Source: Elusimicrobia bacterium HGW-Elusimicrobia-3 | GTDB taxonomy: Bacteria; Elusimicrobiota; Elusimicrobia; Elusimicrobiales; UBA9959 | Reading direction: 5' to 3' | Assembly: GCA_002840355.1 (NCBI GenBank) | Contig: PHAL01000030.1 | Coordinates: forward strand, 1 to 33,725 | Length of the DNA: 33,725 nucleotides | In this document: positions 2,719 to 26,479 of the stretch, in pieces | Layout: every line of letters begins with the position of its first letter | Position numbering within the stretch: the first letter of the stretch is position 1 | The notes under the pieces: model-generated | Told to the model about the DNA's origin: nothing | The model's database searches: none | The model's input: only the letters and a program-made list of their open reading frames with translations | Position numbers and translations under genes: made by a program

Positions 2719-2852
2719 CGTACGGACGGCCGGGCGGATAAGAAAAACACTCGTGAGGCCCGAGCTTGCATAAGCGCGAGGGCCGAATCGCGTAGCGAGC
2801 GCACGGTGTGCGCGAGCGCGTTTTTCGTTCCGACTGGGCGGCCGGACGGTAA
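2719..2852. repeat. Structured dispersed element, copy 1 (between pfaC and oleA)
   Basis: This non-coding element of about 133 bp has imperfect terminal inverted repeats (about 2719-2748 and 2818-2852) and internal hairpins. GAAAAAC (2742-2748) pairs with GTTTTTC (2820-2826). GGCCC (2757-2761) pairs with GGGCC (2780-2784) around an inner GCTT-GCAT-AAGC. GCGCAC (2799-2804) pairs with GTGCGC (2808-2813) across a GGT loop. A related copy lies at 25303-25430, with changes on both sides of several helices that keep the pairing. The element ends only about 15 bases before the oleA start codon. Its structure resembles a REP-like or MITE-like element; no family name is recognised. Confidence 0.8.
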
Positions 2853-2867
2853 CGGCTCAGGTACTTA

Positions 2868-3887
2868 ATGAAATACTCCAAAGTCTATATCAACGCCATA
2901 GGTTATGAACTCGGGCCCAACGTGGTCACCTCCTCTGAACTGGAGAAGCGCGTGCTGCCCATGCTCGAAGCCCTGCATATACCCCAGGGCCAGCTCGAAG
3001 CCCTCACCGGCATACGCGAACGCCGCTGGTGGGACCCCGGCTTCCCCCTCTCCGAGGGCGCCGCCCGCGCCGGCCGCAAGGCGCTGGCCGCCGCCGGCCT
3101 GCAGCCCGCCGACCTCGGCGCCCTCGTCTACGCCGGCGTCTGCCGCGAGCACAGCGAGCCCGCCACCGCCACCGCCGTGGCCGCCCTGCTCGGCACCGGC
3201 CCCGAGACCGCCGTCTACGACCTGTCCAACGCCTGCCTCGGCGTGCAGAACGGCATGCTCGACCTCGCCAACCGCATAGAGCTCGGCCAGATCCGGGCCG
3301 GCCTGGTGGTCTCCTGCGAGTCCTCCCGCGAGATCAACGACAGCATGATAGCCGAGATGAACCGGGACAAGAGCTTCGAGAATTTCCGCCTCTCCATCGC
3401 CACCCTCACCGGCGGCTCCGGCGCCGTGGGCGTGCTGCTCACCGACGGTTCCTTCCCCGGCGACCACCGCCGCCACAAATTGATGGGCGGCACCTACCGC
3501 GCCGCCTGCGAGCATCACAAGCTCTGCGTCTGGAACCGCGACCATATGTTCACGGACGCCACCGGCGCGCTGAAGCACGGCACCGCGCTCGGCCGCGAAA
3601 CCTGGAAGAGCCTGCTGGCCGAACTCGGCCTGCGCGGCGAGGACTTCGACAAGACCGTCTGCCACCAGGTAGGCTCCACCCACCGCAAATCCATCCTGGA
3701 AGCGCTGGGCATACCCGAAGAGAAAGATTTCCCGACCTACGAGTACCTCGGCAATATGGGCACCGCCGCCCTGCCCGCCGCCGCCGCCATCGCCGACGAG
3801 CGCGAGTTCCTGCGGCCCGGCGACAATGTGGCCTTTCTCGGCATCGGCAGCGGCCTCAACACGATAATGATGGGAGTAAAGTGGTAA
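2868..3887 (+). CDS. oleA: OleA, acyl-CoA head-to-head condensing thiolase
   Basis: 339 residues, the usual OleA size, with a thiolase (FabH-like) fold. OleA performs a non-decarboxylative Claisen condensation of two fatty acyl thioesters, giving a 2-alkyl-3-ketoacid. The triad is visible: Cys123 in SNACLGVQNG, His266 in CHQVGS and Asn296 in YLGNMGTA. The OleA-specific Glu, which acts as the condensation base, is Glu97 in VCREHSEPATA; this separates it from FabH. The ATG at 2868 has only a weak CAGG upstream, because the structured element ends about 15 bases before it. The stop overlaps the oleB start (TAATG). The adjacent pfaC suggests polyunsaturated acyl chains as substrate, which is inference. 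Confidence 0.92.
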   Translation: MKYSKVYINAIGYELGPNVVTSSELEKRVLPMLEALHIPQGQLEALTGIRERRWWDPGFPLSEGAARAGRKALAAAGLQPADLGALVYAGVCREHSEPATATAVAALLGTGPETAVYDLSNACLGVQNGMLDLANRIELGQIRAGLVVSCESSREINDSMIAEMNRDKSFENFRLSIATLTGGSGAVGVLLTDGSFPGDHRRHKLMGGTYRAACEHHKLCVWNRDHMFTDATGALKHGTALGRETWKSLLAELGLRGEDFDKTVCHQVGSTHRKSILEALGIPEEKDFPTYEYLGNMGTAALPAAAAIADEREFLRPGDNVAFLGIGSGLNTIMMGVKW

Positions 3888-4783
3888 TGAACAACAACCT
3901 TCCCGCCGGCGTCACGCCGGAAATGTACCCCTTCGCCGGCAAGTACTTCCTGCAGAAGAACGGCCTGCGCCTGCATTACCTCGACGAGGGCGCCGGCAAG
4001 CCGGTGGTGATGGTGCACGGCAACCCGTCCTGGTCCTTCTACTACCGAAATTTAGCCCTGGCCCTGAAAGACTCCCGCCGCGTCATAGTGCCCGACCATA
4101 TCGGCTGCGGCCTCTCCGACAAGCCGGGCGACGACCGCTACGACTACACGCTGGCCAGCCGCGTCGACGACCTGGAAGCCCTGATAGACAGCCTGAACCT
4201 CACGGAGAAGATCACGCTGGTGGTGCATGACTGGGGCGGCATGATAGGCCTGGCCGCCGCCGTGCGCCGCCCGGAGCGCATAGAGAAAATAGTAGTGCTC
4301 AATACCGGCGCCTTCTTCCTGCCCGGCGGCAAGAGCTTTCCCGCCGCCCTGCGGCTGGTGCGCACGCCGCTCGGCGCGCTGCTGGTGCGCGGCTTCAACG
4401 CTTTCGCCCGCGGCGCGGCCTGGATAGGCTGCAAGCGGCGCCGCATGCCCGTCGCCCTGCGCGCGGCCTACGCCGCCCCGTACGACAGCTGGGCCAACCG
4501 CATAGCCACGCTGCGCTTTGTGCAGGACATCCCGCTCACCCCCGGCGACAAGGCTTACCGGGTGGTGGACGAGACCCAGGCCAAACTGGGCTCGCTGGCC
4601 GGGTTGCCGATGCTGATCTGCTGGGGCCTGCGCGATTTCGTCTTCGACCGGCATTTCCTCGCCGAATGGCAGCGCCGCTTCCCCGGCGCCGCAGTACACA
4701 GCTTCCCCGACTGCGGCCATTACATACTAGAGGACGCCGCGGGCGAAGTAATACCGCTGGTCAAGGATTTCATCACCGCCTAA
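3887..4783 (+). CDS. oleB: OleB, beta-lactone decarboxylase (alpha/beta hydrolase)
   Basis: 298 residues; an alpha/beta hydrolase of the haloalkane dehalogenase superfamily. In olefin synthesis OleB removes CO2 from the cis-beta-lactone made by OleC, leaving a cis-alkene. Seen here are HGNPSWSFYYRNL with the oxyanion/halide-type Asn46, the nucleophile Asp115 in VVHDWGGMIG, and the base His278 in CGHYILED. The Asp nucleophile (not Ser) fits OleB and the dehalogenases. The start ATG overlaps the oleA stop by one base. The frame stays open upstream through oleA only as a GC-rich shadow. OleB and OleC are separate proteins here, unlike the OleBC fusions known in some actinobacteria. Confidence 0.9.
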   Translation: MNNNLPAGVTPEMYPFAGKYFLQKNGLRLHYLDEGAGKPVVMVHGNPSWSFYYRNLALALKDSRRVIVPDHIGCGLSDKPGDDRYDYTLASRVDDLEALIDSLNLTEKITLVVHDWGGMIGLAAAVRRPERIEKIVVLNTGAFFLPGGKSFPAALRLVRTPLGALLVRGFNAFARGAAWIGCKRRRMPVALRAAYAAPYDSWANRIATLRFVQDIPLTPGDKAYRVVDETQAKLGSLAGLPMLICWGLRDFVFDRHFLAEWQRRFPGAAVHSFPDCGHYILEDAAGEVIPLVKDFITA

Positions 4784-6397
4784 ATGCCAGAACCGGTCAA
4801 TATCTCCACGCTCATAGCCGGCTGCGCGGCCGCCCTGCCGGACCGCCCCGCCGTCATACACGACGGGCGCAGCGTTACTTTCAGGGAACTGGAGGCCGAC
4901 GTGGCCCTGCTGGCCGCCGGGCTCGCCCGCGCGGGGATAAAGCCCGGCATGCGCGCGGCCCTGATGGTCACCCCCTCCATAGAATTCGTCGCCCTCACCT
5001 TCGCCCTGTACCGGGCCGGCGCCACTACGGTGCTGATAGACCCCGGCATAGGCCTGGGCAACATGAAGCGCTGCCTGGCCGAGGCCAGGCCTGAAGCCTT
5101 TGTCGGCATATCCAAGGCGCACGCGGCGCGGCTGCTGCTGGGCTGGGCGAAAACCTCCGGCCTTAATATCACCGCCGGCCGGCGCTGGTTCTGGGGCGGG
5201 CCGGACCTGGCGGAACTGCGCAGGCTGGGCGAGGGAGCGCCGGCGCCGGACCCGGCGGCCACTCCGGAGACGGCCTCCATCAATTTCACCTCGGGCAGCA
5301 CCGGCGCCCCGAAAGGCGCCGTCTATACGCACGCCATGTTCGCAGCGCAGGCGGCAATGCTGAAGGAATATTTCAGGATAGAGCCCGGCGCTTTCTCCGT
5401 GCCCACTTTCCCGCTGTTCGCCCTTTTCGACGTGGCCCTGGGCCTTACCATAGTGATCCCGGACATGGACTTCACCAGGCCCGCCGCGGTGGACCCGGCC
5501 ATGCTGGCGGGACTGATCAACGAGTATAAAGCCGTGCAATTGTTCGGTTCTCCGGCGCTGATAGACACGCTGAGCCGCTACGGCGCGGCCAGCGGGACTA
5601 CGCTACCCTCGCTCGAGCGGGTCATCTCCTGCGGCGCGCCGGTCTCGGCCGCGGTGATAGAGCGCGTGGCCAGAATGCTCAGGCCCGGCACCCCGGTATA
5701 CACCCCTTACGGCGCCACCGAGGCGCTGCCGGTGGCCTGCGTCTCAGGCGAAGAGCTGGCGGCCCTCGGCCCCGGCCGCGGCGTCTGCTTGGGCCGCAGC
5801 TGGCCCGGCGTGGAAACTTTCGTCATCAGGATCTCCGACGGCCCCATAGCGGAATGGTCGGACGCGCTGCTGGCGCCGGAAGGCGAGATCGGCGAGATAG
5901 CGGTGAAAGGCCCGATAGTCTCGCCCTGTTATTTCGCCAGGCCGGAGAGCGACGCGCTGGCCAAGATACGGGGCGCGGACGGCCGGCTCTACCACCGCAT
6001 GGGCGACGCCGGCTGGAAGGACTCGCAGGGCCGGCTCTGGTTCTGCGGCCGCAAGAGCCACCGCGTCACTACAGCGGAAGGCACCCTTTTCACCATTCCC
6101 TGCGAGTCGGTCTTCAACGCCCATCCAGCCGTGCGGCGCTCCGCTCTCGTCGGCGCGGGCCCGGCCGGCCGCCAGACCCCGGTCCTGTTCGTAGAACTGG
6201 AGAAAGGCGCCAGGCAAAGTGCCGTGCTGACAACCGAACTGCTGGGGCTGGGCGCCGCGCAGGCCCACACCGCGGGCATAAAACATATTTTCTACCACCC
6301 TGGCTTCCCGGTGGACATACGCCATAACGCCAAGATCTCGAGAGAAAAGCTCGCGCTGCTCGCTGAAAAGCTGCTCGGCGCCGGGACGGCGGCGTGA
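4784..6397 (+). CDS. oleC: OleC, beta-lactone synthetase (ANL adenylate-forming family)
   Basis: 537 residues, normal for OleC. The protein adenylates 2-alkyl-3-hydroxyacids and closes them into a beta-lactone. The AMP-binding motif FTSGSTGAPKGAVYTH lies near residue 170, YTPYGATEALPV near 305, and the hinge/adenylate motif around GRKSHRV near 420. The C-terminal HNAKISREKL carries the conserved lysine region. The ATG follows the oleB stop with no gap (TAAATG). The stop overlaps the oleD start. OleC is distinguished from ordinary acyl-CoA ligases mainly by its place between oleB and oleD and by overall resemblance; the context makes this call strong. Confidence 0.92.
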   Translation: MPEPVNISTLIAGCAAALPDRPAVIHDGRSVTFRELEADVALLAAGLARAGIKPGMRAALMVTPSIEFVALTFALYRAGATTVLIDPGIGLGNMKRCLAEARPEAFVGISKAHAARLLLGWAKTSGLNITAGRRWFWGGPDLAELRRLGEGAPAPDPAATPETASINFTSGSTGAPKGAVYTHAMFAAQAAMLKEYFRIEPGAFSVPTFPLFALFDVALGLTIVIPDMDFTRPAAVDPAMLAGLINEYKAVQLFGSPALIDTLSRYGAASGTTLPSLERVISCGAPVSAAVIERVARMLRPGTPVYTPYGATEALPVACVSGEELAALGPGRGVCLGRSWPGVETFVIRISDGPIAEWSDALLAPEGEIGEIAVKGPIVSPCYFARPESDALAKIRGADGRLYHRMGDAGWKDSQGRLWFCGRKSHRVTTAEGTLFTIPCESVFNAHPAVRRSALVGAGPAGRQTPVLFVELEKGARQSAVLTTELLGLGAAQAHTAGIKHIFYHPGFPVDIRHNAKISREKLALLAEKLLGAGTAA

Positions 6398-7395
6398 AGG
6401 CGCTGGTCACCGGCGGCGGCGGCTTCCTGGGCCGCGCCATAGTCCGCCTGCTGCTCGCCAAGGGCGCGCAGGTGCGGACCCTCTCCCGCGGCGACTACCC
6501 GGACCTCCGCGGCCTCGGCGTGGAATGCCTGCGCGGCAGCGTGGCCGACCCGGCGGCCGCCGCCGAGGCCTGCCGCGGCAGCGATACCGTTTTCCATGTT
6601 GCCGCAAAGGTGGGCATGTGGGGCCGCTACGAGGATTTCCACAGGGACAATGTTACCGGGACCGAAACGCTGCTGGCCGCGGCGAAAGAAGCCGGCGTGT
6701 CTAAATTCGTCTTCACCAGCACCCCCAGCGTGGTCTATCCCGGCGGGGGCGGGGACGTGGAGGGCTGGAACGAGAGCGCCCCTTATCCCGCCAGGTTCGA
6801 TTCTTTCTACGCCGAAACCAAGGCGGCCGCGGAACGTCTGGTGTTAGCGGCAGACTCACCCGGAATGTCCACCGTCTCGCTGCGCCCGCATTTGGTCTGG
6901 GGCCCCGGCCGGGACCACATGATCAGCACGATAGTGGCCCGCGGCAGGGCCGGCCGGCTGCGCCGCGTCGGGGCCTTCAACAAGCTCATAGACGTGACCT
7001 ATGTCGAAGACGCCGCGGCCGCCCACTGGCTGGCCGCCGAACGGCTGGCTCCCGGCGCGGCCTGCGCCGGCAAGGCCTATTTCCTCTCGCAGGGCGACCC
7101 GCGGCCCAACTGGGACATAGTGAACATGATACTCGCGGCCGCCGGCCTGCCGCCGGTGACGGGGTCCGTGCCCTACGCCGCCGCGCGCGCCGCGGCGGCC
7201 GTGCTGGAAACTGCCTGGCGGCTGGCCCGCGTCAGTTCCGAGCCGCCCCTCACCCGCTTCGTCCTGCAGCAATTGACCACGGCGCACTGGTTCGACATCA
7301 CAGCCGCCCGCCGGGACCTGGGCTATGCCCCGTCGGTGACCATAGAGCAGGGCATGGAGAAACTAAAAGAGTGGTTCTCTTCAGCCGGCAAATAA
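6394..7395 (+). CDS. oleD: OleD, 2-alkyl-3-oxoalkanoate reductase (SDR/epimerase fold)
   Basis: 333 residues, an extended short-chain dehydrogenase. It reduces the OleA product, 2-alkyl-3-ketoacid, to the 3-hydroxyacid with NADPH. The N-terminus begins with the Rossmann loop VTGGGGFLGRAI, and the catalytic pair is Tyr139/Lys143 in YAETK. The start is GTG at 6394 inside the oleC stop (GTGA overlap), which gives the proper glycine loop at the N-terminus. It is the last gene of the unit and is followed at once by a strong terminator. OleBCD are known to assemble together in other bacteria, which fits the tight translational coupling seen here. Confidence 0.92.
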   Translation: MKALVTGGGGFLGRAIVRLLLAKGAQVRTLSRGDYPDLRGLGVECLRGSVADPAAAAEACRGSDTVFHVAAKVGMWGRYEDFHRDNVTGTETLLAAAKEAGVSKFVFTSTPSVVYPGGGGDVEGWNESAPYPARFDSFYAETKAAAERLVLAADSPGMSTVSLRPHLVWGPGRDHMISTIVARGRAGRLRRVGAFNKLIDVTYVEDAAAAHWLAAERLAPGAACAGKAYFLSQGDPRPNWDIVNMILAAAGLPPVTGSVPYAAARAAAAVLETAWRLARVSSEPPLTRFVLQQLTTAHWFDITAARRDLGYAPSVTIEQGMEKLKEWFSSAGK

Positions 7396-22630: not shown

Positions 22631-22885
22631 CTATTTCTCTGCTTTCAGCAGCCGCTCCAGCACGCGGGCCAGCTGGTCGGAGCAGGAGGTGGCCTTATCG
22701 CCGCAGGTGATGCCCCGCAGCTTGGCTATGGCCTCTTTTACCGGCATCCCCTCGAGCAGCCGCGCCATCGCCGCCAGGTTGCCGGGGCAGCCGCTGAAGA
22801 ACTTGACGCCCTTCAGGCGGCCGTCGGCCACGCTGAAGCTCACCTCTTTGGAGCAGACGCCCTCGAGCTTGTGCTTTTTGGTCAC
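22631..22885 (-). CDS. TSCPD domain protein
   Basis: 84 residues. Its layout matches the small stand-alone TSCPD family: an N-terminal strand region (KLEGVCSKEVSFSVADGRL), a conserved FFSGCPGNLAAMARLLEGM, and a C-terminal CGDKATSCSDQLARVLE. The name-giving TSCPD motif reads TSCSD here. The same domain occurs at the end of B12-dependent ribonucleotide reductases. The stand-alone function is not known. The start is GTG at 22885, overlapping the pheT stop (GTGA), so it is translated with pheT. Confidence 0.82.
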   Translation of the reverse strand: MTKKHKLEGVCSKEVSFSVADGRLKGVKFFSGCPGNLAAMARLLEGMPVKEAIAKLRGITCGDKATSCSDQLARVLERLLKAEK

Positions 22886-25269
22886 GCGCGCAGCCTGGCC
22901 CCGAAGTTCTTGGTCAGCTTGTCGAGGATGGCCGTCATGCGGGCGCCCACCTCGGCGTCGTTGAGCGTTTTCTCCATCGAGGAGAACGTGAAGCGCACCG
23001 TCAGGCTGCGGTTGCCGGCCGGGATATTCTTGCCCTTGTAGACGTCCACCAGCCGCGCGCTGTGCAGGTCCTGCACGCCGGAGAAAGAGCGTTCCAGCTC
23101 CGCCCACTCGTGCTTTTCCTCCAGGATCACGCTCAGGTCCCGCCAGTTCTGCGGGAAAGCCGAGACGGGCTTGATCTTGGTTATCTTCTGCCAGAACTCG
23201 GTCTTGCCTGCCACGGCCAGGCAGGAGAGCGGGATCTCGAAGTAGTAAATGTTATTGTCCTTGAAGTCGGCCGCGGCGCAGACCGCGGGCGCGAGCTTGC
23301 CCAGGAAGCCGGCGCTGCCGCCGCCCAGCCGCATCTCAAGGCAATGGCCGGGCAGGAAATAGGCCGGGGCCTTCTTGGGCTTCTCGTAGCGGAAGCCGCC
23401 CTTGCCGGCGAAGAGGCGGTTCATCACGCCCTTGAGGTAGTAGAAATCGGCAGAGGCGCTGCCGCCCTGCCAGGAGCCGCCCTCGGGCAGGGGGCCGTAG
23501 GCCAGTCCGGCGCAGTATATTTCCTCGGCCTTGCCGGCGTCCTTGCGGGCGTAGGCGGTACCGGCCTCGAAGAGCAGCGCTGTCTCCCGTCCGCGGTTGA
23601 GGTTGTAGCGAAGCGTTTTTAGCAGACCAGCCAGCAGCGTCGGGCGCAGGTACTGGTAATCGGAAGAGAGCGGGTTCTTGACTTCCAGCGCCGCCTCCGG
23701 CTCCAGGCCGCAGGCCTTCAGTTCTTTGGCCGAGGAGAAATCGTAATTGTAGACCTCGCTGAAACCCAGCGCGGCCAGCGTGTTGCGCAGCTCCGTAGTG
23801 ACGGTCCAGAGCGGGCTCACGGTGGACGGGCGCATCGGCATATTGGAGGCGGACGGGATGACGTCGTAGCCTACGTAGCGGGCCACTTCCTCGGCCACGT
23901 CCCAGGCGCTCTCGATGTCCTGCCGGTAGGACGGCACCGTGAATTTCCACGGCTTGGCGTCCTTCAGGTCCGGCTGGAAGGCCCGCAGGCAGGCGTAGAT
24001 CTCGCCGTCGGCGATGCCGGTGCCGAGTATAGCGTTCACGCCGGCGGGGTCCACGTCCAGCACCGGCGGCTGATAGGCCACCGGGTAATTGTCGGTGATC
24101 TGCTGCGCGCTGGCGCCGGGCGCGGCGGCCAGTATCAGGCCGGCCAGGCGGCGGGCCGCCCGCATGGGCAGCTCAGGGTCGGTGCCGCGCTCGAAGCGGT
24201 AGGAGGACTCGCTCTTGATGCCGGAGGCCTTGGAGGCCAGCCGCACGGTGGGCGGGTGGAAGCGGGCGGACTCTATCAGTATCGCGTCGGTCTCCTCGGA
24301 AACCGCGGTGTCCAGGCCGCCCATCACGCCGGCCAGGGCGGCGGGCTTGGAGGCGTCGGCGATGACCATCATGCCGGGGTCCAGCTTCAGGGCCTGGTTG
24401 TCGAGCGTCTTGAGCATCTCGCCGGCCAGCGCCTTGCGCACGATGATCTTGGGGCCGGCGAGTTTGGTTATGTCGAAGCAGTGGGTGGGCTGGCCCAGCT
24501 CATACATCACGTAGTTGGAGCCGTCTATCAGCAGGTTGCCCTTGGGGTTGCAGCCGACGGCGCGCAGGCGCGAGGCCATCCACTCGGGCGTCCTGGCGCC
24601 CTTCACGCCCTTGAGGACTATGGCGCCGTAGCGGGGGCACAGGTCCGGCACCTTGACCTCCACCGGCACCAGTTGGCCGGCGGCTTCGCCGGAAAACACC
24701 GGCACGTCTTTCATCCTAAGCCCGTAGAACAGGCAGAACTCGCGGGCCAGCGCGTAATGCGACAGGCAATGCGCCTGGTTGGGCAGCATCTCCACTTCCA
24801 TCGCGTAGTCGGATTTGGGGAAAAGCGTCGAGGCGTCGGTGCCGGGCTCGAGGCCCTCGGCCAGCACGAGGATGCCGCTGTTATCGTAGCCTTCCAGGCC
24901 CAGTTCGCCCGCGGAGCAGATCATGCCCTCGCTCTCCACGCCGCGGATCTTGGCCTTCTTCAGCTCGCCCTCGGCGAGGACGGCCCCCACCCTGGCGAAA
25001 GGGATGTTCTGGCCGACGGCGATATTCTTGGCGCCGCAGACCACGCGCATGACGGCCTTGCCGTCGTTGACGTCCACGAGCGAGAGCTTGTCGGCGTTCG
25101 GGTGCTTGTCTATCTTGTCTATCCGGCCCACGCACACGCCCGAGAAAGACGCCCCGGTCTTGCGCAGCTCCTCCACCTTCAGCCCCACGCGCCCAAGCTT
25201 GGCCGCCAGGTCTTCCGGCGTCGGAGGATTCTCAATATAATCAGCCAGCCACGAATATAAAATCTTCAT
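22882..25269 (-). CDS. pheT: Phenylalanyl-tRNA synthetase beta subunit
   Basis: 795 residues, usual length. An EMAP/OB-type tRNA-binding domain (GVCVGRIDKIDKHPNADKL, from about residue 45) is followed by the B3/B4 editing region (about 200-385), the B5 domain, the inactive synthetase core and a C-terminal ferredoxin-like anticodon-binding domain that ends near RMTAILDKLTKNFGA. Together with PheS it forms an alpha2beta2 enzyme that charges tRNA-Phe and edits Tyr. An unusual 160-base gap holding the structured element separates it from pheS. The GAGAGAAAG before the ATG is a modest ribosome-binding site. Confidence 0.96.
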   Translation of the reverse strand: MKILYSWLADYIENPPTPEDLAAKLGRVGLKVEELRKTGASFSGVCVGRIDKIDKHPNADKLSLVDVNDGKAVMRVVCGAKNIAVGQNIPFARVGAVLAEGELKKAKIRGVESEGMICSAGELGLEGYDNSGILVLAEGLEPGTDASTLFPKSDYAMEVEMLPNQAHCLSHYALAREFCLFYGLRMKDVPVFSGEAAGQLVPVEVKVPDLCPRYGAIVLKGVKGARTPEWMASRLRAVGCNPKGNLLIDGSNYVMYELGQPTHCFDITKLAGPKIIVRKALAGEMLKTLDNQALKLDPGMMVIADASKPAALAGVMGGLDTAVSEETDAILIESARFHPPTVRLASKASGIKSESSYRFERGTDPELPMRAARRLAGLILAAAPGASAQQITDNYPVAYQPPVLDVDPAGVNAILGTGIADGEIYACLRAFQPDLKDAKPWKFTVPSYRQDIESAWDVAEEVARYVGYDVIPSASNMPMRPSTVSPLWTVTTELRNTLAALGFSEVYNYDFSSAKELKACGLEPEAALEVKNPLSSDYQYLRPTLLAGLLKTLRYNLNRGRETALLFEAGTAYARKDAGKAEEIYCAGLAYGPLPEGGSWQGGSASADFYYLKGVMNRLFAGKGGFRYEKPKKAPAYFLPGHCLEMRLGGGSAGFLGKLAPAVCAAADFKDNNIYYFEIPLSCLAVAGKTEFWQKITKIKPVSAFPQNWRDLSVILEEKHEWAELERSFSGVQDLHSARLVDVYKGKNIPAGNRSLTVRFTFSSMEKTLNDAEVGARMTAILDKLTKNFGARLRA

Positions 25270-25302: not shown

Positions 25303-25430
25303 GTTTCGACAGGCGGACCAGGTTAGCAAAACCTTCATGAGGGCGAGGCTTGCATAGCGCCGAGCCCGATTGATGAGCGAGGCCACGGTGTGGCCGAGCG
25401 CGTTTTGCGTTCTGGTTCGCCTGGCGGAAC
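25303..25430. repeat. Structured dispersed element, copy 2 (between pheS and pheT)
   Basis: This element of about 128 bp has clear terminal inverted repeats: CAGGCGGACCAG on the left (25310-25321) against CTGGTTCGCCTG on the right (25412-25423), extended on both sides over about 30 bases. Internal helices are GCAAAAC/GTTTTGC (25326-25332 with 25402-25408), GGGC/GCCC (25341-25344 with 25363-25366) and GGCCAC/GTGGCC around GGT (25381-25386 with 25390-25395). Shared words with copy 1 include GCTTGCATA, CACGGTGTG and CGAGCGCGTTTT. The right end touches the first base of the pheS stop codon. It points against the direction of transcription, unlike copy 1. Confidence 0.85.
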
Positions 25431-26479
25431 TAAGCTACCTGCTTCAGCACCCGCAGGTCGTTCTCGTAAAGCATCCGCATGTCGCTGATGCCGTAGAGCA
25501 GCATCGCGAAGCGCTCTATGCCCGCGCCGAAAGCGAAGCCGCTCCACTTGGCCGGGTCGCAGTTGCAGGCCTTCAGCACGTTCGGGTGCACCACGCCGGC
25601 ACCCATCACCTCCAGCCAGCCCGTGCCCTTGCAGACCGGGCAGCGGCCCGCGCCGCTCTTGCAGAACACGCAGCTCATGTCCACTTCTGCGCCGGGCTCC
25701 ACGAAAGGGAAATACGACGGGTTAAAGCGGGTCTTCACGCCGGAGCCGAACAGGTCCTTCATGAAGGCGTCCACCGTCCACTTCAGGTCGGCCATGCTCA
25801 CGCCCTTGTCGACGTAGAGGCCCTCTATCTGGTGAAAAGCGAACGAGTGGCTGGCGTCCACGGCTTCGGAACGGAACACGCGGCCGGTGTGGAACACGCG
25901 CACCGGAGGCTGCGCCTTCTCCAGCGCTCGGATCTGCACCGGGGAGGTGTGCGTGCGCAGCAGCATGCCCTTGCCGTCCTGGTCCTTGGCGTCGACGTAG
26001 AAAGTGTCCTGCATGTCGCGCGCGGGGTGGAACGGCGGGAAGTTCAGCGCCTCGAAATTATGGTAGTCGTCCTCGACCAGCGGCCCGTCGGACATCGTGA
26101 AGCCGAGCTTCAGGAAGCCCTCGGCCAGGCGGTTCATCGTGTGGGTGAGCGGGTGCAGGCTGCCCTTGGGGCAGGGCGCGCCGGGCAGCGTCAGGTCCAG
26201 CCCCGGCGCGGCGGCGGCCGCGGCGGCGGGGCTCGCCCCCTTCAGCTCGGCCAGCTTGGCTTCCATCTCCGTCTTGGCGGAGTTGCCGAGCGCGCCGAGG
26301 GGCTTGCGCTCCTCCAGCGGGATATCCTTGAGGTCCCTCAGCAGCAGCGCGAGCTCGCCCTTGCGGCCCAGGAAGCGCAGCTCGAGCGTCTCCGGGTCGC
26401 CGGCGGGTTTCTCAGTTATAGAAACGGAAAAACTGTCCCGTATTGCGGACAGTTTCTCCTTCCACTCCGTGGCGTTCAC
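25430..26479 (-). CDS. pheS: Phenylalanyl-tRNA synthetase alpha subunit
   Basis: 349 residues. An N-terminal coiled-coil arm (1-85) precedes a class II synthetase core. Motif 2 lies around RVFHTGRVFRSEAVDASHS near 200. The metal-type cysteines are in CVFCKSGAGRCPVCKGTG near 275-290. Motif 3 is FAFGAGIERFAMLLYGI near 325. It is the catalytic subunit that charges tRNA-Phe. The gene follows rplT by eight bases, so it is cotranscribed with infC-rpmI-rplT. No T-box or Phe leader peptide is seen. Confidence 0.96.
   Translation of the reverse strand: MNATEWKEKLSAIRDSFSVSITEKPAGDPETLELRFLGRKGELALLLRDLKDIPLEERKPLGALGNSAKTEMEAKLAELKGASPAAAAAAAPGLDLTLPGAPCPKGSLHPLTHTMNRLAEGFLKLGFTMSDGPLVEDDYHNFEALNFPPFHPARDMQDTFYVDAKDQDGKGMLLRTHTSPVQIRALEKAQPPVRVFHTGRVFRSEAVDASHSFAFHQIEGLYVDKGVSMADLKWTVDAFMKDLFGSGVKTRFNPSYFPFVEPGAEVDMSCVFCKSGAGRCPVCKGTGWLEVMGAGVVHPNVLKACNCDPAKWSGFAFGAGIERFAMLLYGISDMRMLYENDLRVLKQVA

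Follow-up and report, generated by a model that had tools for sequence, protein, structure and literature searches.

ERIC, Correia/NEMIS and RUP elements and the Rickettsia RPE are intergenic palindromic repeats of ~100–150 bp that carry no genes of their own and mainly form simple long hairpins, while the attC sites of integrons are quasi-palindromes used as one folded strand, in which the stem sequence varies and unpaired features are conserved. The closest described systems, the REP, BIME and REPIN repeats of the GTAG and CGTC superfamilies, are extragenic, multi-copy and palindromic, lie downstream of genes and show compensated stem changes (PMC3733652, PMC2817692, PMC3116915). Individual REPs measure 20–40 bp, with a stem of 5–13 bp and a loop of 2–20 nt (PMC3733652); they have a strand-asymmetric foot and form inverted pairs, usually 20–100 bp apart. 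In addition, template switching at hairpins can write multi-base compensated changes and invert the loop in a single event, with cases in rRNA and microRNA genes that involve short loops (PMC8794818).

The window analysed here, a stretch of 33,725 nucleotides from Elusimicrobia bacterium HGW-Elusimicrobia-3 (genome G000), carries two copies of an element that shares these general traits of the REP group and is much larger, with a 105-nt core bearing a two-hairpin head and an outer stem of ~20 bp or more. Unlike REPs and their RAYT transposases, it has no enriched GTAG tag, does not flank Y1 transposase genes and appears to exchange its core within site-specific frames. Since the tests of size, GTAG tag and flanking RAYT fail, we do not file it as a REP. 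Compared with ERIC, Correia/NEMIS, RUP and Rickettsia RPE as generally described, the element has a branched head, conserved bulges and a different host lineage. With attC it shares the folded strand, variable stems and conserved unpaired features, but it shows no attC core-site consensus by eye and no cassette arrays, occurring instead as dispersed single or paired copies.

The initial annotation had described two copies with common words, common helices and covarying stems. Alignment and folding confirmed both, with a mean column identity of 82% between the aligned copies and one arrangement common to the two folds: an outer stem, an inner stem B and two hairpins. The compensated changes that it had listed are also present, GCGCAC/GTGCGC becoming GGCCAC/GTGGCC, GAAAAAC/GTTTTTC becoming GCAAAAC/GTTTTGC and GGCCC/GGGCC becoming GGGC/GCCC. 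The features are as follows, the E-values of the covariance model being rough:

76–2694, + strand: FabA-domain gene, left neighbour of copy 1
2719–2852, + strand (same strand as the operon): copy 1, whole element with its degenerate outer stem
2732–2835, + strand: core of copy 1 (covariance model R1, 94 bits, E=3.4e-22)
2742–2826, + strand: inner stem B of copy 1, around both hairpins (GAAAAAC 2742–2748 / GTTTTTC 2820–2826)
2757–2784, + strand: hairpin 1 of copy 1, stem GGCCC/GGGCC, tip GCTTGCATAAGCGC, with the near-invariant GCTTGC and its TT bulge
2795–2817, + strand: hairpin 2 of copy 1, GC-GA-GCGCAC-GGT-GTGCGC-GA-GC, with opposed GA/GA internal loop and GGT triloop
2868–3887, + strand: OleA/FabH-like gene, right neighbour of copy 1
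22882–25269, − strand: pheT, flanking copy 2
25303–25430, + strand (antisense to the flanking operon): copy 2, whole element with an outer stem of ~20 bp (GTTTCGACAGGCGGACC / GGTTCGCCTGGCGGAAC)
25316–25417, + strand: core of copy 2 (covariance model R1, 105 bits, E=2.5e-25)
25326–25408, + strand: inner stem B of copy 2 (GCAAAAC 25326–25332 / GTTTTGC 25402–25408)
25341–25367, + strand: hairpin 1 of copy 2, GGGC-GA-GGC-TT-GC-ATA-GC-GCC-GA-GCCC
25377–25399, + strand: hairpin 2 of copy 2, GC-GA-GGCCAC-GGT-GTGGCC-GA-GC
25430–26479, − strand: pheS, whose stop codon is abutted by the end of copy 2

In each copy the + strand folded better than the − strand, with z-scores of −3.0 versus −2.3 for copy 1 and −6.3 versus −4.9 for copy 2. 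Three terminator-like matches, which use stem B's own T and A runs, were counted in copy 1 (0.3 expected), and none in copy 2; no promoter-like site was found at the element. The genes at 2868–7395 of the window are consistent with an olefin (OleABCD-like) operon; profile matches identified a ketoacyl synthase III and an olefin beta-lactone synthetase-like ligase among them, and the hydrolase and dehydrogenase were named by eye.

The covariance model R1, built from 19 own-genome copies including copies 1 and 2, recovered ~65 strong copies in the 2.88-Mb genome G000, where copy 1 used as a BLASTN query found ~30 significant places, and many more in relatives that had contributed nothing to the model. 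The shared fold is therefore not due to chance. These additional copies carry further compensated changes, which supports the REP/MITE-like dispersal that the initial annotation had envisaged, and its two-copy description understates the case: the element belongs to a high-copy family whose pairing mostly extends well beyond the core. Matches were obtained in 25/25 genomes searched within the genus and in 0/16 genomes of the sister family, while a phylum-wide search, whose stricter filters lost weak matches, returned 12 of 199 genomes and 4 of the 64 sampled genera, all in one family. These genomes are MAGs; several, sister genomes included, are incomplete, and repeats fall at contig ends. Named matches were Elusimicrobia or Elusimicrobiales MAGs. 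One match on a Magasanikbacteria contig (L168) was set aside as chimeric because its GC content jumps from ~0.32 to 0.61 along the contig. As the initial annotation had presumed, no named family accounts for the element: the Rfam covariance models gave nothing at the gathering score and chance-level matches only at an E-value cut-off of 10. Viral contigs held no exact match to two core patterns, and the literature searched, of incomplete coverage, contained no account of this repeat family of Elusimicrobiota, which is apparently undescribed so far.

Each copy is a long quasi-palindrome: one of its strands folds into a ~105-nt core, comprising an outer helix, an inner stem and two hairpins, set atop a copy-specific outer stem. 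The outer helix of the core holds 7 model pairs. Among 100 copies, 32 have an asymmetric internal loop reading TTA/GT and 16 have TAA/GT instead; hairpin 1 has the tip GCTTGC-RTA(A)-GCGC, and hairpin 2 reads CAC-GGT-GTG. Unpaired features are strongly conserved, with the TT bulge in 99/100 copies and the GGT triloop in 96/100, and the opposed GA/GA internal loop is found in 63/100 copies for hairpin 1 and in 44/100 for hairpin 2, plus GC/GA in 41 more. The paired positions vary together: across 100 copies, standard pairs fill 89.6% of pair cells (70.7% when shuffled), double changes occur at 27 of 34 pairs, and the covariation score reaches 0.447 versus 0.136 for shuffled alignments and at most 0.087 for slid structures, controls that reduce but do not remove the bias of an alignment leaning to its own structure, the model having been made from own-genome copies. 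The covariation lies far above these controls. The earlier statement that compensated change means selection on the fold holds for the covarying fold and goes too far on selection, because template switching can write compensated changes and invert the loop, and one copy of this family is indeed inverted at its site (see below). The conserved features that do not pair (the TT bulge and the GGT triloop) offer better support for selection on, or inheritance of, a specific fold.

Some copies carry additional structures. Small hairpins (GTGGAGCNNAGCGACAC, GTGGCCGAAGGCCACTGCAGTG) sit in the loops of several copies of G000 (C41:10467, C16:21998, C4:11910, C91:7146, C86:15015, C53:8074 and C58:3977), and three of eight hairpins of the first type (GTGGAGCNNAGCGACAC) lie outside scored copies. 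A longer extra domain (GGATAAGCCGCATAGCGGCTTTCCGCG and further hairpins) occurs in or near hairpin 2 at C83:25694, C91:7090, C4:11852 and C30:2786 of the same genome.

Cores are homogenised within a genome, while outer stems are site-specific yet paired. Beyond the model the arms pair over ~15 more positions (0.42–0.89 versus 0.25–0.73 shuffled), and swapping arms between copies abolishes this outer pairing. For instance, 19 cores of the relative G007 are 97.3% identical; the identity of their arms falls outwards from 0.82 (positions 1–4) through 0.57, 0.40 and 0.33 to 0.26 (positions 23–40), yet arm pairing stays at 0.84–1.0 up to position 18, except for the often mismatched position 11.

We ranked relatives by PheS and compared orthologous sites, which showed that sister species can differ at one site both in the core it carries and in the orientation of that core. 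Of 23 own-genome flank pieces, 22 were located in G014, the closest relative (the 2.5-kb flank query being manually transcribed). At 10 of 11 sites, the own-genome core resembled a paralogue in G000 more closely than it did the G014 orthologue, the margin being <0.02 at two of them. In G014 the site of copy 1 is occupied by a core from another subfamily, which points the opposite way and stands on a different stem. The copy at C67:26921 has been inverted at its site, where 27 nt of the former end remain, its core being 96% identical to the orthologue versus 91% to the next best copy, and C22:2803 also looks inverted, its orthologue tying with a paralogue. G010 and G002 form a closer pair: some of their sites have hardly changed, at one the outer stem differs by several paired changes between otherwise similar flanks, and two hold different copies in opposite orientation. 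The pheS–pheT junction is occupied in about half of 30 genomes, and at most of the occupied sites an outer frame like GCGGTTCCGACAAGG/CCTTGGCGGAACCGC surrounds cores that belong to different subfamilies; this frame is kept over about a dozen species, with opposite orientation in G047.

Two sites are element-free in G014 (C6:25525 and C34:42730), with neighbouring genes close together and both arms absent. These could be deletions. We considered arms derived from the target; the lack of the outer arms at both sites speaks against the element having simply inserted into a palindrome already present at these positions. We observed no clean target duplication, the element-free sites being too diverged to display one. 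Another G014 site (L280, the counterpart of G000:C34:69115) lies downstream of a tRNA-like sequence and contains, in place of the element, an inverted repeat unrelated to it, AGGGGACGCTGCTTCCTATCTTCCTAA.

We consider it probable that these copies form a dispersed non-coding family of extragenic palindromic repeats, REP/BIME-like with a much larger branched head, which spreads by head exchange and palindrome-directed copying; head exchange itself is inferred from similarity patterns rather than observed as an event. Under such a mechanism, a core would be copied into existing or new palindromic sites through gene conversion or single-strand hairpin exchange, stems would be kept paired by hairpin template switching together with some selection for the fold, and selection against damage would leave copies behind genes. 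The folded strand is probably recognised by some enzyme, or by the replication and recombination machinery. Any effect on the 3' end of the upstream mRNA would be secondary, because the orientation of the core relative to the gene is close to free. A more specific proposal, to which we give only tentative credence, is that a ~100-nt mobile or exchangeable nucleic-acid "head" is swapped among persistent site-specific palindromic frames by a single-strand recombination system that recognises the branched fold.

A different source of mobility would be expected if the family were a true REP of the GTAG superfamily whose hairpin had expanded and which one of the resident Y1 (RAYT-type) transposases mobilised in trans, these enzymes binding the folded single strand at its 5' foot. 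The foot of well-preserved copies has GGAG(C/G)GGG on its left side and CCCGCGAAC or CCCCGACT on its right, the right motif being present in 19 of 23 copies that have the left one. This foot, GGAGCGGGT...ACCCGCGAAC (GGAGCGGG..CCCGCGAA), recurs in sister genera and resembles that of Pseudomonas REPs, GGAGCGGGTT...ACCCGCGAA (PMC2817692); GGAG is enriched (71 versus 28) and strand-asymmetric, with 62 starts located 12–18 nt outside the core versus 11 in the mirror position. The ten close pairs of G000, all arranged "−" then "+" and 30–172 bp apart (nine of ten at 30–101 bp), the placement behind genes and the presence of Y1 genes in most carriers also fit a REP. By contrast, GTAG is not enriched (9 left versus 15 mirrored, among 151 copies), and the GGAG foot is absent from many copies. 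An associated RAYT, for which the initial annotation had suggested a check, was not supported: no element lies near the eight Y1 loci scanned, nor on the contigs of seven Y1 genes of G000, G002 and G010, and several Y1 genes are flanked by other palindromes. Moreover, the presence of Y1 genes does not track the elements, G003, G015 and G044 (91–93% complete) having many copies and no detected Y1 gene, and G113 and G138 having 8–9 Y1 genes and no element. Mobilisation by resident Y1 transposases is hence, in our view, unlikely.

Further observations concern the same features. A tail, CCCCGACTNNGCATCTCGCGG, follows the palindrome at the right end of some copies and pairs (e.g. G000:C31:9540–9840 and L225); its CTCGCGG or CCTGCGG end is found in 24 of 151 copies versus 2 on the other side, and it gives pairs inverted termini. 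In relatives, the Y1 genes at L053, L054, L056 and L057 have CCCGACAATACGNTGTCGGG-like hairpins ahead of them and are bordered by palindromes of their own (GGGGACAGGCTACTTTTT or CTGTCTGAGAACTTTT), and at L294 and L293 (G010/G002) one element copy lies between inverted GGGGACAGGCTACTTTTT repeats, which also border some Y1 genes. The sole Y1 transposase gene found in G000 (C57:25337–25663, locus L156:2712–3779) combines a Y1_Tnp domain with a match to the DnaA C-terminal domain (PF08299) below the curated cut-off.

The compensated changes might also be purely mutational, template switching copying one arm onto the other so that the fold need not be selected at all. Multi-base compensated changes and loop inversions are documented for such events (PMC8794818), and the in-place inversion with partial arm duplication and the near-random but paired outer stems both agree with them, with the difference that the inverted "loop" of the element is the whole ~100-nt core. 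As a complete account we judge this improbable, as it leaves unexplained both the persistence of the TT bulge, the TTA/GT or TAA/GT loop and the GGT triloop across subfamilies whose sequences otherwise diverge widely and the spread of the cores.

The genomic placement of the family bears on whether it acts as RNA. According to gene calls from a home-made codon-based gene finder trained on the window, none of 148 placements (56 own-genome units and 92 copies from other MAGs) falls inside a called gene. In the set from other MAGs (n=85), 62 gaps are tandem, 22 convergent and 1 divergent, against 369 tandem, 35 convergent and 33 divergent among 437 background junctions, so that divergent (promoter) gaps are depleted (1/85 versus 33/437) and convergent gaps enriched (22/85 versus 35/437). 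Core starts often lie ~10–70 nt from a stop codon. Relative to tandem genes, single cores of both sets are antisense in 48 cases and sense in 30, a difference (p=0.05) that we do not rely on, and third-position GC skew revealed no significant bias in replication strand (11/30, p=0.2).

Closeness to stop codons, together with the strong covariation and the better folding of the + strand in both copies, would suit a structured RNA with a cellular role at transcript 3' ends (stability, processing or protein sponge) whose fold selection would maintain at the RNA level, and the opposed GA/GA loops and conserved bulges could equally well belong to a transcribed functional RNA. Such a role appears quite doubtful, given that cores antisense to the tandem genes are no rarer than sense ones, that a core can be inverted at its site, that the presence of the element is patchy, with only about half of the pheS–pheT junctions filled, that terminator-like matches are confined to copy 1 and no promoter-like site was found, and that numerous homogenised copies are the pattern shown by repeats.

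The element as a retroelement product was rejected, since 24 of the 32 genus genomes lack RVT_1, among them G000 and also G018, which is 100% complete and holds at least 19 element copies. A MITE of a DDE transposon would have terminal inverted repeats, a target site duplication and a related autonomous copy; no transposase was recognised between the wider-spaced inverted pairs examined, which enclose ordinary or unrecognised genes only, and overall no mobilising enzyme was found among the Y1 genes, RVT_1 and the genes between wide inverted pairs.

Our results describe a well-supported family of structured repeats in a phylum of which few members are cultured. The family also sets apart two things that are commonly equated. 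Its covariation proves that pairing is maintained, but the near-random yet paired stems, the apparent exchange of heads and the inversion at one site suggest that hairpin-directed copying is a source of compensated changes, a point relevant wherever covariation by itself is taken as evidence of selection on an RNA. Furthermore, the family offers a natural system for measuring how fast stems are copied and cores exchanged. If the swapping of heads among persistent palindromic frames proved true, it would represent a new mode of spread for a non-coding repeat.
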